The notes below the pieces were generated by a model, which did not search any database, was not told where the DNA came from, and was given only the letters and a program-made list of their open reading frames with translations. Both the position numbers and the translations under genes were made by a program. From Aquabacterium sp. NJ1 (GTDB taxonomy: Bacteria > Pseudomonadota > Gammaproteobacteria > Burkholderiales > Burkholderiaceae_C), in the NCBI RefSeq assembly GCF_000768065.1, contig NZ_JRKM01000001.1:496001-560000 (forward strand): DNA of 64,000 nucleotides, written 5' to 3'. Positions 18,718 through 60,717 of the stretch are shown piece by piece. Position 1 is the first letter of the stretch, and each line of letters starts with the position of its first letter.

Positions 18718-19471
18718 GGAGCGGGAAATGCTTGTTCTGTTCAGTATCGGGTGACTGCAGCCCGGCGCCCTCAAAGGACACGGGCTCAGCTTGAATGTCG
18801 GCTGCACAAGCGGGCGTCGCCTCGGCGGGTGCATCGCCAGTTGAATCGGTTTCCAGGAGAGAAGCCTGGTCTTGTGTTGTGCCACCTTCATCAGCCGGCA
18901 ACTCGTCGACACCAGCCTCCTCGAGGCCCGGCAGCAAGGCCTGGCTGACCGGCAGGCCGTCCAGCGTCGGCAACTGGTTGAGCGAGGCCAGCCCCAGGTC
19001 ACTGAGGAACTGCCGCGTGGTGGCAAACAGGCTTGGCCTGCCCGGCCCGTCACGGTGGCCGATCACCTCGATCCAGCCCCGATCTTCCAGTTGCTTGATG
19101 ATGTTGGCACTGACCGTCACACCCCGGATGTCTTCGATGTCACCCCGGGTCACGGGCTGCTTGTAGGCAATGATGGCCAGGGTCTCCAGCGTCGCACGCG
19201 AATACTTGGGCGGCTTCTCAGGGTTGAGCCGATCCAGGTGCGCCTGAACCTCTGCCCGCGTCTGGAAGCGCCACCCATTGGCCACCTGACGCAACTCGAC
19301 CCCCCGCCCGTCCCAGCGCGCGCCCAGGTCAGCCAGCAAGGCGAGCACGGCGTCCGCCGACATGGTGTCGTCGAACAACTGGCGCATCTCGCGCACCGTC
19401 ATGGGCTGGTCGGCGCACATCAGCGCCGCTTCGAGAATGCACTGGGCATCCTGGGGATTGAGGACTTCCAT
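18680..19471 (-). CDS. scpB: Chromosome segregation and condensation protein ScpB
   Basis: ScpB is a winged-helix kleisin partner of the SMC-ScpAB condensin. The product shows the family core, with [33 protein letters not shown] and then [33 protein letters not shown], followed by an acidic, Glu/Ala-rich C-tail. The ATG at 19471 gives the typical N-terminus ([20 protein letters not shown]); an in-frame GTG at 19537 would add 22 residues and has no ribosome site. scpA is not adjacent: about 290 bases with no gene separate it from rluD. Its end overlaps rluB by 38 bases. Confidence 0.93.
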
Positions 19472-55794: not shown

Positions 55795-56766
55795 TTAGTG
55801 GAAAAAACCGATGCGCTTGAAGTCGCTGAAGTTCATCCAGATCACGAATGCCTTGCCCACGATGTTTTCATCAGGCACAAAGCCCCAGAAACGGGAGTCC
55901 TGCGAGTTGTCGCGGTTGTCACCCATCATGAAGTAGTGACCCGGCGGCACCTTGCAGACCACGCCCTCGCCACTGTAGCGGCAGTTTTCCTTGTTGGGGA
56001 AATCTTCGATCGCCTGAGGTGGCACGAACGGTGGGCGGTCCTTGTCCACCAGGATGCGGTGGCTCACGCCCATGAGGTTTTCCGAGTACTGCAGCGAGTA
56101 CTTCAGGCTGTCCTCGTCATAGAACTCGGCCAGTGGCGTCTGTTCGATGGGCGTCCCGTTGATGGTCAGGCGCTTGTTGATGTAGGCGATCTCGTCACCC
56201 GGCAGGCCCACCACGCGCTTGATGTAGTCCAGGCTGGGGTTGACGGGGTAGCGGAACACCATCACGTCACCACGTTCCGGCTCGTGGTTGGAAATGATCT
56301 TCTTGTTGATCACCGGCAGGCGGATGCCGTAGTGGAATTTGTTGACCAGAATGAGGTCGCCCACCAGCAGCGTCGGGATCATCGAGCCTGAAGGGATCTT
56401 GAACGGCTCGAACAGGAACGAGCGCATCAGGAACACGGCGCAGATGACCGGGAACAGACCGGCTGTCCAGTCCAGCCACCAGGGCTGCATCAGCAGCTTC
56501 TCGCGCGCCTGGCTGACGTTGCCGTCCACCTGCGCGATGCCCTGGCTGGCCAGTTGCTTGCGACGGGCTTCGTCCTCAACCAGCAGCTTGGCTGCGGCAG
56601 CCTCCCGCTCCGGCTGGAACTTGTAGCGCTCGGCCAGCCAGTAGACCAGCGTGACCAGCGTCAGCACGAACAGCAACAGGGAAAAGTTACCCTGCCATTG
56701 GCCGACGTACCAGCCCCCCAGGTACGCCAGCAGCGCAGCGTACAACACACCTGTGATCAAACTCAT
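55795..56766 (-). CDS. lepB: Signal peptidase I
   Basis: LepB removes signal peptides from exported proteins. The product has an N-terminal pair of hydrophobic segments (about 2-20 and 26-45), a cytoplasmic Lys/Glu-rich linker, a second anchor (about 101-118), Ser128 in IPSGSMIPT as nucleophile, and Lys183 in YIKRVVGLPGDEI as base; GDNRDNSQDSRFWG ends the catalytic core. The ATG at 56766 shares one base with the stop of lepA (TGATG), so translation is coupled; the TTG just before is not needed. Confidence 0.96.
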   Translation of the reverse strand: MSLITGVLYAALLAYLGGWYVGQWQGNFSLLLFVLTLVTLVYWLAERYKFQPEREAAAAKLLVEDEARRKQLASQGIAQVDGNVSQAREKLLMQPWWLDWTAGLFPVICAVFLMRSFLFEPFKIPSGSMIPTLLVGDLILVNKFHYGIRLPVINKKIISNHEPERGDVMVFRYPVNPSLDYIKRVVGLPGDEIAYINKRLTINGTPIEQTPLAEFYDEDSLKYSLQYSENLMGVSHRILVDKDRPPFVPPQAIEDFPNKENCRYSGEGVVCKVPPGHYFMMGDNRDNSQDSRFWGFVPDENIVGKAFVIWMNFSDFKRIGFFH

Positions 56767-58574
56767 CAATCGTCCACTTGAAGGATGGCCAGGAAAGCTT
56801 CTTGCGGCACCTCGACGGAGCCCACCTGCTTCATGCGCTTTTTACCGGCCTTTTGTTTTTCGAGCAGTTTCTTCTTGCGGGTGATGTCACCGCCGTAGCA
56901 TTTTGCCAGCACGTTCTTGCGAAGCGCCTTGATGTTTTCACGCGCAATGATGTTGCCGCCAATGGCCGCCTGAATCGCCACGTCGTACATCTGGCGCGGG
57001 ATCTGTTCGCGCATCTTGGCCGCCACGGCGCGGCCACGGTACTGGCTTTGCGCGCGGTGCACGATGATCGACAGCGCGTCCACGCGGTCCCCGTTGATCA
57101 TCAGGTCGACCTTGACCACGTCCGAGGCCCGGTACTCCTTGAACTCGTAGTCCATGGAGGCGTAACCACGCGACACGCTCTTGAGCTTGTCGAAGAAGTC
57201 CAGCACGATTTCGGCCAGCGGCATCTCGTAGGTCAGCATGACCTGGCGGCCGTGATAGGCCATGTTGAGCTGCACGCCACGCTTCTGGTTGGCCAGCGTC
57301 ATCACCGGGCCGACATAGTCTTGCGGCATGTACAGGTGCACGGTGACGATGGGCTCGCGGATCTCCTTGATCTTGGCCACCTCGGGCATCTTCGAGGGGT
57401 TCTCGACCTCGATGACCTCGCCGCCATTGAGCTCGACCTGGTAGACCACGCTGGGCGCCGTCGTGATCAGGTCCTGATCGAACTCGCGCTCCAGGCGCTC
57501 CTGCACGATCTCCATGTGCAGCAGGCCGAGGAAACCGCAGCGAAAGCCAAAGCCCAGCGCTTGCGACACCTCAGGCTCATAGCGCAGCGAGGAATCATTG
57601 AGCTTGAGCTTTTCCAGCGCGTCACGCAGCTGGTCGTACTCGCTGGCCTCGGTGGGGTACAAGCCCGCGAACACCTGCGGCTGGATTTCCTTGAAGCCGG
57701 GCAGCGCCTCGGTAGCCGGGCCTGCGTTATTGGGCAGCTTCTTTTCAACGGTGACGGTGTCGCCCACCTTGGCCGCCTGCAACTCCTTGATGCCGGCGAT
57801 GATGAAACCCACCTCGCCTGCCTTGAGCGCGTCACGGTTTTCAGACTTGGGCGAGAACACGCCCAGGTGCTCGGCCGGGTAGACGGCGTTGGAGGCCATC
57901 ATGCGGATGCGTTCACCCTTGCGCAACTGGCCATCGACCACGCGCACCAGCATCACCACGCCCACGTAGTTGTCGAACCACGAGTCGATGATCATGGCGC
58001 GCAGCGGGCCATCAGGATCACCCTTGGGCGGTGGGATGCGTGCCACCACAGCTTCGAGGATCTCGTCCACACCCATGCCGGTCTTGGCCGAGCAAGGGAT
58101 GCCGTCGGTGGCGTCGATGCCGATGACGTCTTCGATCTCGGCCTTGGCGCGCTCAGGGTCAGCCTGAGGCAAGTCCATCTTGTTGAGGACGGGCACCACC
58201 TCCACGCCCAGATCGAGCGCGGTGTAGCAGTTGGCCACCGTCTGGGCTTCCACGCCCTGGCTGGCGTCCACAACGAGCAAAGCGCCTTCACATGCGGACA
58301 GCGAGCGGCTCACTTCATAAGAGAAGTCCACATGGCCCGGGGTGTCGATCAGGTTGAGGTTGTAGACCTGGCCGTCCTTGGCCTTGTATTGCAGCGCAGC
58401 GGTCTGCGCCTTGATGGTGATGCCACGTTCGCGCTCGATGTCCATCGAGTCGAGAACCTGTGCTTCCATCTCACGGTCACTCAAGCCCCCGCAGCGCTGG
58501 ATGATGCGATCGGCCAGCGTGGACTTGCCGTGGTCGATGTGGGCAATGATCGAAAAATTACGGATGTGATTCAT
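56766..58574 (-). CDS. lepA: Elongation factor 4 (LepA)
   Basis: LepA is a ribosomal GTPase that acts in initiation or back-translocation. The 602-residue product starts [20 protein letters not shown] and has all EF-G-like domains ([14 protein letters not shown]) plus the special C-terminal domain ([17 protein letters not shown] and then KREN-like [13 protein letters not shown]). It lies downstream of degP and upstream of lepB. No Shine-Dalgarno is visible; the start follows directly on a run of eight U at the base of a hairpin. Start is fixed by the family N-terminus. Confidence 0.97.
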
Positions 58575-58608
58575 AAAAAAAAGGCACGTCCAAAGGAGTG
58601 ACGCGCCT
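58575..58608 (-). terminator. Terminator-like hairpin and U8 run abutting the lepA start codon
   Basis: On the minus strand, AGGCGCGTC and GACGTGCCT pair over 9 bp with one G-U wobble (plus 58608-58600 and 58590-58582), with loop ACTCCTTTG, and are followed by a run of U ending immediately at the lepA ATG. This is the form of an intrinsic terminator or attenuator in the lepA leader. There is no ribosome-binding site between it and the ATG. Confidence 0.65.
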
Positions 58609-58646
58609 TCCAACAAAAACGTATGGCAACTGCTTGTTGGACTTTC

Positions 58647-58652
58647 ATTGTA
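58647..58652 (-). promoter_or_regulatory. Candidate -10 for lepA
   Basis: TACAAT on the minus strand about 73 bases before the lepA ATG. The -35 region is poor. If real, the leader would be about 65 bases and include the hairpin with the U8 run. Confidence 0.35.
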
Positions 58653-58721: not shown

Positions 58722-58846
58722 TTATCCACAAGTTATCAACAGACCAATGTGGGTAACTTTGGTGTTTTTGCTTGCTTCTTGAGGGGGGGTTCGTCAGCCC
58801 GGGGATTGTACGGGCATTCCCAAGCCCTACCGCTCAGTTATCAACA
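58722..58846. promoter_or_regulatory. Cluster of four DnaA-box-like sites upstream of lepA
   Basis: One perfect DnaA box TTATCCACA (58722-58730); a one-mismatch box TTATCAACA 11 bases further (58733-58741); a reverse box TGTGGGTAA (58748-58756, one mismatch); and another TTATCAACA (58838-58846). Four within 125 bases in a short intergenic region is well above chance. No dnaA, dnaN or AT-rich unwinding element is seen, so this is not the origin. It could be a DnaA titration or reactivation site, or control lepA. Confidence 0.55.
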
Positions 58847-59039: not shown

Positions 59040-60599
59040 TTACTTGGCGTTCGGTCGAATCACCGCGTACTGCGCCCACTCGCCACGGCGCACCAGCACG
59101 CTCACAGGGCGAGACCGGTCGAGCTTGGCCAGCACAGCTTCGAATTCCTTGACGCCACTGATCTGGACGTTGGCCACGGCCAGCACCACATCACCAGGGC
59201 GCAAGCCCGCACGTGCAGCGGGGCCCTCGACGCCTTCCACCAGCACGCCGCCGTTTTGCTTGAGCTCGCGCTTCTGGTCTGCATTGAGGTCAATGATCTT
59301 CAAGCCCAGCGCAGAAGCGGCCAGCTTGGCGTCCGCCTTGCCTGAGTCAGCCTTGTCATCCTTGGCCTTGCCGGATGAGTCCAACTCGGCCACGGTGATG
59401 CTCAGATCCTTGTAGCTGCCGCGGCGGAAGACTTGAATGGAGGTCCTGGTACCCGGCTTGGTCGCCCCTACCAGGCGAGGCAGGTCCTGCGCCTTCTCGA
59501 TGGCCTGGCCTGCAAACTTGGTGATGATGTCGCCCGCCTCCAGGCCGGCTTTCTCGGAAGGTGTGCCCGCTTCAACACTTTGCACCAGCGCGCCCACCGG
59601 CTTGCCAAGGCCAATGGATTCGGCCACGTCCTTGGTCACCGGCGCAATGGCCACACCAATGCGGCCGCGAATCACCTTGCCGCCTGCACGCAGTTGCTCG
59701 GCCACCTTCATGGCGTCGTCAATGGGGATCGACAGCGAGATCCCCATGAAGCCACCAGAGCGGCTGAGGATCTGCGAGTTGATGCCCACCACCTCGCCAC
59801 GCATGTTGATCAGAGGGCCGCCCGAGTTACCCGGGTTCACCGCCACGTCAGTCTGGATGAAGCGGATCTCTTCACCGGTATCGCGCGCCTTGGCACTGAC
59901 GATACCTGCCGTCACCGTGTTGTCCAGCCCGAAGGGCGTGCCGATGGCCATCACCCACTCGCCGACCTTCAACCTGCTGACGTCACCAATCGAGACGGCA
60001 GGTAGCTTGGACGCCTGGATCTTGAGCACGGCCACGTCGGTGCGCTTGTCCACGCCCACCACCTTGGCCTTGAACTCGCGCTTGTCGGTCAGGTTGACGT
60101 ACACCTCATCGGCGCCATCCACCACGTGGGCGTTGGTCATCACATAACCATCAGGGCTCAGGATGAAACCCGAGCCCACGCCACGGGGGCGCTCTTCACC
60201 TTGATCTCCACCCTTTTTGGGCGCGCTCCTGCGCGGTGTCTGACCCGGCATGGGTGTGCCAAAGAAGCGCTTGAAGAACTCGCGCATCTGCGCATCGGCT
60301 TCATCGTCGCCCTCATCGGCATCTTCCACCACACGTTGAGTGGTGCGGATGCTGACCACCGAGGGGCCCACACGCTCAACCAGCTCGGTGAAATCGGGCA
60401 AGCCCTTGACGATCACCGGTGGCTGCGTTGCCTGGGGTGCCGGTGCGCTGAACGTTGTCGCAGGCTGTTGGGCCTGAGACGCATGCGGGAACAAGCTGGA
60501 GCTCAGCACCAGGCCGACGGCCGAGACCACCGCGCCGACCACCAAGGTACGGCGAACAACAGAACGGGTCGAAGAACCAGACTGCAGAGAGGACGTCAT
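59040..60599 (-). CDS. Periplasmic serine protease DegP/MucD family
   Basis: A 519-residue HtrA protein that degrades or holds misfolded envelope proteins. It has an N-terminal signal (about 1-43, ending SQA), an acidic linker, the catalytic triad His158 (TNAHVV), Asp188 (TDVAV) and Ser259 (GNSGGPL), and two PDZ domains (about 300-395 and 420-510). A linker rich in Lys/Asp/Ser (about 400-420) precedes the second. The ATG at 60599 is used; the GAGG is 9 bases away. It follows rseA across 177 bases, and a terminator ends it. Confidence 0.94.
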   Translation of the reverse strand: MTSSLQSGSSTRSVVRRTLVVGAVVSAVGLVLSSSLFPHASQAQQPATTFSAPAPQATQPPVIVKGLPDFTELVERVGPSVVSIRTTQRVVEDADEGDDEADAQMREFFKRFFGTPMPGQTPRRSAPKKGGDQGEERPRGVGSGFILSPDGYVMTNAHVVDGADEVYVNLTDKREFKAKVVGVDKRTDVAVLKIQASKLPAVSIGDVSRLKVGEWVMAIGTPFGLDNTVTAGIVSAKARDTGEEIRFIQTDVAVNPGNSGGPLINMRGEVVGINSQILSRSGGFMGISLSIPIDDAMKVAEQLRAGGKVIRGRIGVAIAPVTKDVAESIGLGKPVGALVQSVEAGTPSEKAGLEAGDIITKFAGQAIEKAQDLPRLVGATKPGTRTSIQVFRRGSYKDLSITVAELDSSGKAKDDKADSGKADAKLAASALGLKIIDLNADQKRELKQNGGVLVEGVEGPAARAGLRPGDVVLAVANVQISGVKEFEAVLAKLDRSRPVSVLVRRGEWAQYAVIRPNAK

Positions 60600-60649
60600 T
60601 TGCAAAACCTCGTTTGACAAAAAAACGGAAGGACAGAAACTACAACGTA

Positions 60650-60676
60650 GGAGACCAACTTGCGGCTGACAGTTCA
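60650..60676 (-). promoter_or_regulatory. Candidate sigma-E promoter for degP
   Basis: On the minus strand TGAACTG, 15 bases, then TCTCC. The sigma-E consensus is GGAACTT, 16 bases, TCTGA or TCAAA, so the match is partial. The gene type and its place after rpoE-rseA make sigma-E control likely, but this exact site is uncertain. Confidence 0.3.
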
Positions 60677-60717
60677 TCAGGCGCGTGTGAAGTCAGGTAA
60701 AGACGCGACGCAATGTC

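Follow-up and report, generated by a model that had tools for sequence, protein, structure and literature searches.

The promoters known to be controlled by DnaA as a transcription factor are limited in number, and at E. coli nrdAB it can activate or repress according to nucleotide and level (PMC8203912, a review, excerpt). The DnaA-oligomerization region of E. coli oriC is described, in the excerpted text of PMC10316083, as two facing arrays of same-direction boxes; for Thermotoga DnaA, the same excerpts give cooperative binding as best on like-oriented boxes 2 bp apart and higher complexes on facing boxes 5–6 bp apart. Domain IV of Cyanothece DnaA bound and footprinted DNA in which TTATCAACA was one box, with weaker binding than to two perfect boxes 2 nt apart (PMC4674748, excerpt), so that DnaA, at least that of another phylum, can bind TTATCAACA-type boxes. 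E. coli datA includes a site for IHF and is located close to oriC (PMC5742627, excerpt). Among the open-access papers listed for the terms used, titles and opening lines of abstracts yielded no precedent for DnaA boxes at lepA in betaproteobacteria.

We lean, by a modest degree, to the view that the box cluster upstream of lepA described here is a DnaA-oligomer site, which would regulate the promoter of a lepA leader RNA and, through it, lepA-lepB-rnc.

Experimental section

lepA loci were collected in four sets: by LepA similarity (80 loci), by lepA-upstream DNA of the genus (30), by the exact tandem pair (30, from 101 matching genomes) and by lack of the exact pattern (40). Loci carrying the pair in any set (128) were reduced to 119 distinct rows with enough flank, and these to 90 rows below 75% identity; alignment A1 was built without L119, the sequence of which was truncated. 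The labels 'Comamonadaceae-type' and 'Rubrivivax/Roseateles-type' refer to a split by leader motif, not by taxonomy. Names of neighbouring genes were assigned by family and order, and dnaA was used as the marker of oriC in position estimates.

Results

The window, i.e. the whole 64-kb stretch of DNA that was analysed, carries on its minus strand, in this order, an rpoE-type sigma factor gene, rseA, degP, a gap, lepA, lepB and rnc, according to Pfam matches; the nearest LepA among the collected loci, from an Aquabacterium sp., was 99% identical. The degP-lepA gap contains four DnaA-box-like 9-mers at 58722–58846:

59040–60677, minus strand: degP/mucD-type serine protease gene, upstream neighbour (Trypsin_2, PDZ_2)
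58838–58846, plus strand: fourth box, TTATCAACA, one mismatch; exact 9-mer kept in the genus, spacing variable
58805–58810, minus strand: upstream TACAAT, flanked by the fourth box and box I, which may be a second −10; present in the genus loci printed
58748–58756, minus strand: box I, TTACCCACA, one mismatch; faces the pair, −15 site of a converging array in 11-bp register
58733–58741, plus strand: box II, TTATCAACA, one mismatch; member of the tandem pair farther from lepA, 2-bp gap and 11-bp register to box III
58722–58730, plus strand: box III, TTATCCACA, a perfect DnaA box; member of the tandem pair nearer lepA, the pair being kept in relatives
56766–58574, minus strand: lepA (elongation factor 4; GTP_EFTU, LepA_C)

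The initial annotation had reported four such sites here, one perfect and three with one mismatch, and all were recovered; the starts of the first two are indeed 11 bp apart, and the third box is on the opposite strand, as had been described. The fourth box was present as exact TTATCAACA in 28 of the 30 genus loci (L090–L119; counted from the listing).

The total of near-matches in the 64-kb window was ordinary (19, against a shuffle mean of 14.65; 12 of 100 shuffles reached 19). Their clustering is beyond chance: among 1000 simulated first-order Markov windows of 64 kb, the maximum per 125 bp was one near-match in 636 windows, two in 358, three in 6 and never four. The whole genome (5,020,969 bases) was then searched for exact TTATCMACA, which occurred 18 times, three of them at the cluster, and for exact TTATNCACA, which occurred 19 times. 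Same-direction TTRTNMACA pairs at most 30 bp apart numbered one, the pair upstream of lepA (reversed-pattern control: one). A genome-wide scan had been proposed initially as a check, and frequent box clusters are rejected by these box and pair counts. A separate observation concerns contig C2 of genome G000 (81,637 bases), which may be a plasmid and carries the palindrome TTGTCCACACTGTGGACAA three times, at 18766, 73472 and 75271.

With at most two mismatches in the 11-bp register, the tandem pair was found in 37 of the 76 usable LepA-selected upstream regions (four of the 80 loci, L013, L047, L065 and L069, were omitted for short upstream sequence), in all 30 genus loci, and in 31 of the 40 loci picked for absence of the exact pattern, these being from the first 40 genomes of those listed. 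The boxes are therefore kept in close relatives, a point on which the initial annotation had made its proposal depend. Over the four sets, with only the strand opposite lepA scored, the pair was present in 128 of 176 loci; wherever the strand was printed (the LepA-selected set and the set lacking the exact pattern, including all 37 LepA-selected pairs), it lay opposite lepA. Pair scores were two-peaked, nearly all loci having 0–2 or 4–8 mismatches and one locus 3, and two mismatches or fewer were never reached by shuffles (20 per locus). Within the LepA-selected set, with genera taken from record titles, the pair was present in Aquabacterium, Pelomonas, Roseateles, Rubrivivax, Aquincola, Limnohabitans, Acidovorax, Xylophilus, Hylemonella, Curvibacter, Comamonas, Hydrogenophaga, Pseudorhodoferax, Variovorax, Ramlibacter and Polaromonas, and missing from the loci of Paraburkholderia, Trinickia, Achromobacter, Cupriavidus, Massilia, Duganella and Pandoraea as well as from those of Rhodoferax, Extensimonas and Tepidimonas.

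The exact pattern TTATNMACANNTTATNMACA matched once in each of 101 of the 299 family genomes (58 of 126 genera) and never twice, and its reversed control had no match in the same 299 genomes. Of the exact pairs that were placed, 66 of 67 were at lepA, the remaining 34 of the 101 being outside the placed set: all 30 fetched exact-pair loci were upstream of lepA, and 37 of the other 71 pairs were placed, 35 of them at 187–334 bp upstream of lepA on the opposite strand and one, in G203, at lepA across a contig break. The sole exception was a perfect pair, TGTGGATAAGCTGTGGATAA, away from lepA in G083 (L227, G083:C1:209500-213500); inspection by eye of the lepA gap of this genome revealed no pair and no leader RNA of the usual kind. 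Judged by its distribution, the pair is a clade-wide element.

Under a chance explanation, the cluster would be a coincidence of DnaA-like words, as the ordinary near-match total of the window might suggest; with four boxes in 125 bp in 0 of 1000 simulated windows and conservation across many genera, this is given practically no credence, and the conservation refutes it.

On the lepA side of the pair, a predicted promoter and a short RNA were located:

58647–58652, minus strand: TACAAT, 69 bp from the pair; predicted −10 of the promoter for leader RNA and lepA
58576–58652, minus strand: −10 and short leader RNA, conserved (model R1 match, 89.9 bits)
58609–58641, minus strand: first hairpin of the leader RNA (CCAACAA...TTGTTGG; fold, z −4.44 for 58575–58645)
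58575–58608, minus strand: terminator-like hairpin and U run, directly abutting the lepA start codon (basis: fold, U run and conservation)

Counted from the pair's first base, TACAAT lay 87–92 bp away in 88 of the 90 de-duplicated loci, the other two having no TACAAT at that place; counted from its end, 67–72 bp separated the pair from TACAAT on the lepA strand in 117 of the 119 rows, in all three groups. The distance from TACAAT to the ATG varied from 78 to 231 bp, and mean identity was 37% over the 37 bp upstream of the −10, versus 76% for the pair. With the transcription start taken as 7 nt past TACAAT, the pair is centred at about −92. The boxes thus stand at a set position relative to the predicted promoter, as would be looked for at a DnaA-regulated promoter. 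A strong −35 was not seen at spacers of 16–18 (best mean 2.7 of 6 matches to TTGACA, Comamonadaceae-type, spacer 16); this fits an activated promoter, a point that is only suggestive. A simple promoter and terminator scan listed neither at the leader, so that both predictions have fold and conservation as their basis. lepA may be transcribed from elsewhere as well.

The RNA of ~70 nt that would follow TACAAT has a CCAAC...GTTGG hairpin, followed by a GC hairpin and a U run, and is strongly conserved; GCAGTTGCC was invariant across 24 aligned leader-RNA sequences. The U run meets the lepA start codon in Aquabacterium, and in other groups lepA starts further downstream. The covariance model scored at least 36 bits in 43 of 77 LepA-selected loci (L047, L065 and L069 of the 80 were omitted), where 16 of the 24 model sequences were drawn from LepA-selected loci and hence match by construction, and where the 36-bit line was chosen after the list had been viewed, so that L056, L049, L035 and L052 (17–23 bits) count as absent. 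On whole genomes, 22 of 25 members of the genus had the RNA and none of 16 genomes belonging to the order's other families did; there was one copy per genome except for two contigs of G008 (9% contamination). No Rfam 15 family matched at its gathering score (0 matches in the window); below that score, in the window and the six relatives searched, AsrC matches lay antisense to the lepA 5′ end (window, L023, L039, L045 and L058), probably reflecting lepA coding similarity, and there was one weak Xist_exon1 match. The leader RNA is conserved, was previously unannotated and belongs to no Rfam family.

Across 76 loci, pair and RNA were both present in 37, both absent in 34, with the RNA alone in five and the pair alone in none. 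The five loci with RNA and no pair (L050, L053 with boxes 22 bp apart, L054, L058 and L070) indicate that the RNA does not need the pair; the co-occurrence itself we take to mean that the pair serves the leader-RNA promoter.

DnaA-like 9-mers were further found on the lepA strand upstream of the pair, at −15, −26, −37 and −48, i.e. in steps of 11 bp. The genus has the −15 site, Rubrivivax/Roseateles-type loci the −15 and −26 sites, and Comamonadaceae-type loci the −26, −37 and −48 sites, partly with a 1-bp shift; the −15 box is not kept in the last group. In the 90 de-duplicated loci, 150 of 203 facing sites fell in two of eleven phases, a count that is not a probability because the loci are related; 2000 shuffles gave a mean total of 63, a largest total of 88 and a largest single-phase count of 24. 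With 80 sites of this kind, the opposite strand of the same stretch likewise exceeded the shuffle mean. At least one facing site was present in 70 of the 90 loci, and at least one site scoring 6 or more of 8 at −15, −26, −37 or −48 (±1) in 20 of the 21 de-duplicated genus loci. In the window itself, the −15 box (58748–58756) is the only facing box that stands out.

DnaA is, with good confidence, the probable binder of this array. A loose position 5, a near-invariant ACA at positions 7–9, the 2-bp spacing and the facing arrays all match DnaA. Perfect TTATNCACA occurred in 69 of the 90 pairs, and the pairs without any perfect TTATNCACA numbered 21, versus 27.9 under random pairing (P 0.002). What chiefly weakens this assignment is that A is frequent at box position 6: in 53 of the 90 lepA pairs, one box or both have it; box-like words of relatives had C at this position in 24 of 29 cases in dnaA-dnaN gaps and in 19 of 23 in dnaA-upstream regions. 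TTATCAACA as the standard box at dnaA in this clade was rejected, being absent from 21 dnaA-dnaN gaps (about half of them without any box-like word, and dnaN not found in one) and from the dnaA-upstream regions of relatives. Relative to dnaA, TTATCCACA had the orientation that the pair has relative to lepA in 14 of 16 usable dnaA-upstream regions, 72–126 bp upstream of the dnaA start used (L206–L225), the two exceptions being L208, in which the box faces the other way, and the genome of the window, for which the dnaA start is probably misplaced; this arrangement fits autoregulation. In the dnaA-dnaN gap of L120 (G000:C1:2585000-2595000; 617 bp), TTGTCCACA boxes are repeated 130 bp apart, which suggests a tandem duplication inside the likely origin.

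The same caveat gives some room to another regulator that would bind 9-mers resembling DnaA boxes and control the same promoter, since TTATCAACA did not appear in the dnaA-linked regions read. A candidate second site is also at hand: in Comamonadaceae-type loci (e.g. L039), an inverted repeat GTTGC-N6-GCAAC lies between pair and promoter at +27 to +42 from the pair, most of its columns being 77–89% conserved, and it is possibly the site of a second regulator, so that another factor may act here. Substitution of DnaA by such a protein is nonetheless judged unlikely, if a serious contender, against the DnaA-like features of the boxes, the frequency of perfect TTATNCACA and the occurrence of just one exact pair in each matching genome; of the six neighbouring proteins that were scanned, none but the sigma factor and an RseA-type anti-sigma factor is a regulator.

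Discussion

Drawn from the boxes, their register, uniqueness and conservation, the near-fixed TACAAT spacing and the conserved RNA, all of them observed, the reading that we lean towards is that of DnaA regulating the leader-RNA promoter. The tandem pair would be the nucleation site for DnaA, usually at the better-matching box, and from there DnaA would spread to the weaker facing boxes in 11-bp register, to form a complex centred ~92 bp upstream of the predicted start and at a near-fixed distance from RNA polymerase. Activation would be somewhat likelier than repression, being favoured because no strong −35 was seen, with a sign that perhaps switches between the ATP and ADP forms of DnaA, in the manner of E. 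coli nrdAB. Transcription would first yield the ~70-nt RNA ending in the terminator-like hairpin, and an RNA terminated in this way would be either an attenuator for lepA or an sRNA. Coupling of lepA-lepB-rnc to DnaA had been suggested in the initial annotation; it gains support here and a sharper form, in that the pair appears locked to the predicted leader-RNA promoter.

A more far-reaching version seems doubtful at present, if worth stating: comamonad and Rubrivivax/Roseateles-type Burkholderiales would possess, throughout the clade, a single DnaA-controlled sRNA gene, at which oriC-like facing arrays near −92 toggle the ~70-nt RNA with the DnaA-ATP cycle, yielding a replication-timed RNA that acts on lepA or other targets. 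If DnaA control holds, one array per genome at one promoter would be a simple place to study the input of replication initiation to gene expression, and the array would point to a function for the unannotated conserved RNA before lepA.

Comparison with known systems

The locus shares with E. coli datA that it is a DnaA-box cluster outside oriC. A datA-like position was rejected, as the cluster lies at approximately 0.81 of the half-chromosome from dnaA in its own genome (dnaA being 2.0 Mb away) and lepA at approximately 0.30–0.93 in 16 genomes (G326 among them without the exact pair).

For DARS, the core of E. coli DARS1 was found to consist of TTATCCACT facing TTATCCACA and TAATACACA, the latter two in the same direction, with starts at 0/14/26; the best site of this geometry in the E. 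coli mutH region, also with starts at 0/14/26, we take for the core of DARS2, identified by its geometry. The genus likewise has three boxes over a 26-bp span, with box I facing boxes II and III (orientation as in the excerpted text of PMC5742627). A titration, inactivation or reactivation site of the datA or DARS kind, acting on DnaA itself with the promoter merely adjacent, would draw on this shared orientation and span, and on the rarity of strong boxes in the genome together with the single exact pair per matching genome. It is considered improbable: the starts in the genus are 0/15/26, which gives a spacing of 15/11 versus 14/12 and places box II 1 bp off the DARS register, the facing −15 box is not general in the clade, having been lost in Comamonadaceae-type loci, and the chromosomal position is not conserved. 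Nor would such a site need a near-fixed TACAAT spacing or co-occurrence with a leader RNA. DARS identity was rejected on the spacing and on the loss of the −15 box, and the initial suggestion of a datA/DARS-like site found no support as an identity; of the two ideas put forward at the outset, coupling to transcription is the better one. The amount of DnaA bound by the array may still be large enough for titration, but the promoter is what the array is most conservedly related to.

Further parallels are found at E. coli oriC and nrdAB. Same-direction boxes, facing arrays and weak sites beside better anchors are shared with E. coli oriC (excerpted text of PMC10316083 and PMC4285127), and the oriC-type arrangement, with boxes 2 bp apart and two facing arrays, is seen as a pattern over the loci, the window itself showing one facing box; unlike oriC, the lepA array has fewer boxes and is not beside dnaA. 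With E. coli nrdAB, it has in common DnaA boxes in a promoter region. It differs from nrdAB in its two facing arrays in 11-bp register, ~90 bp from the predicted −10 and kept over many genera, and in that the first product on the lepA side would be a terminated leader RNA, under what is here a putative control by DnaA.
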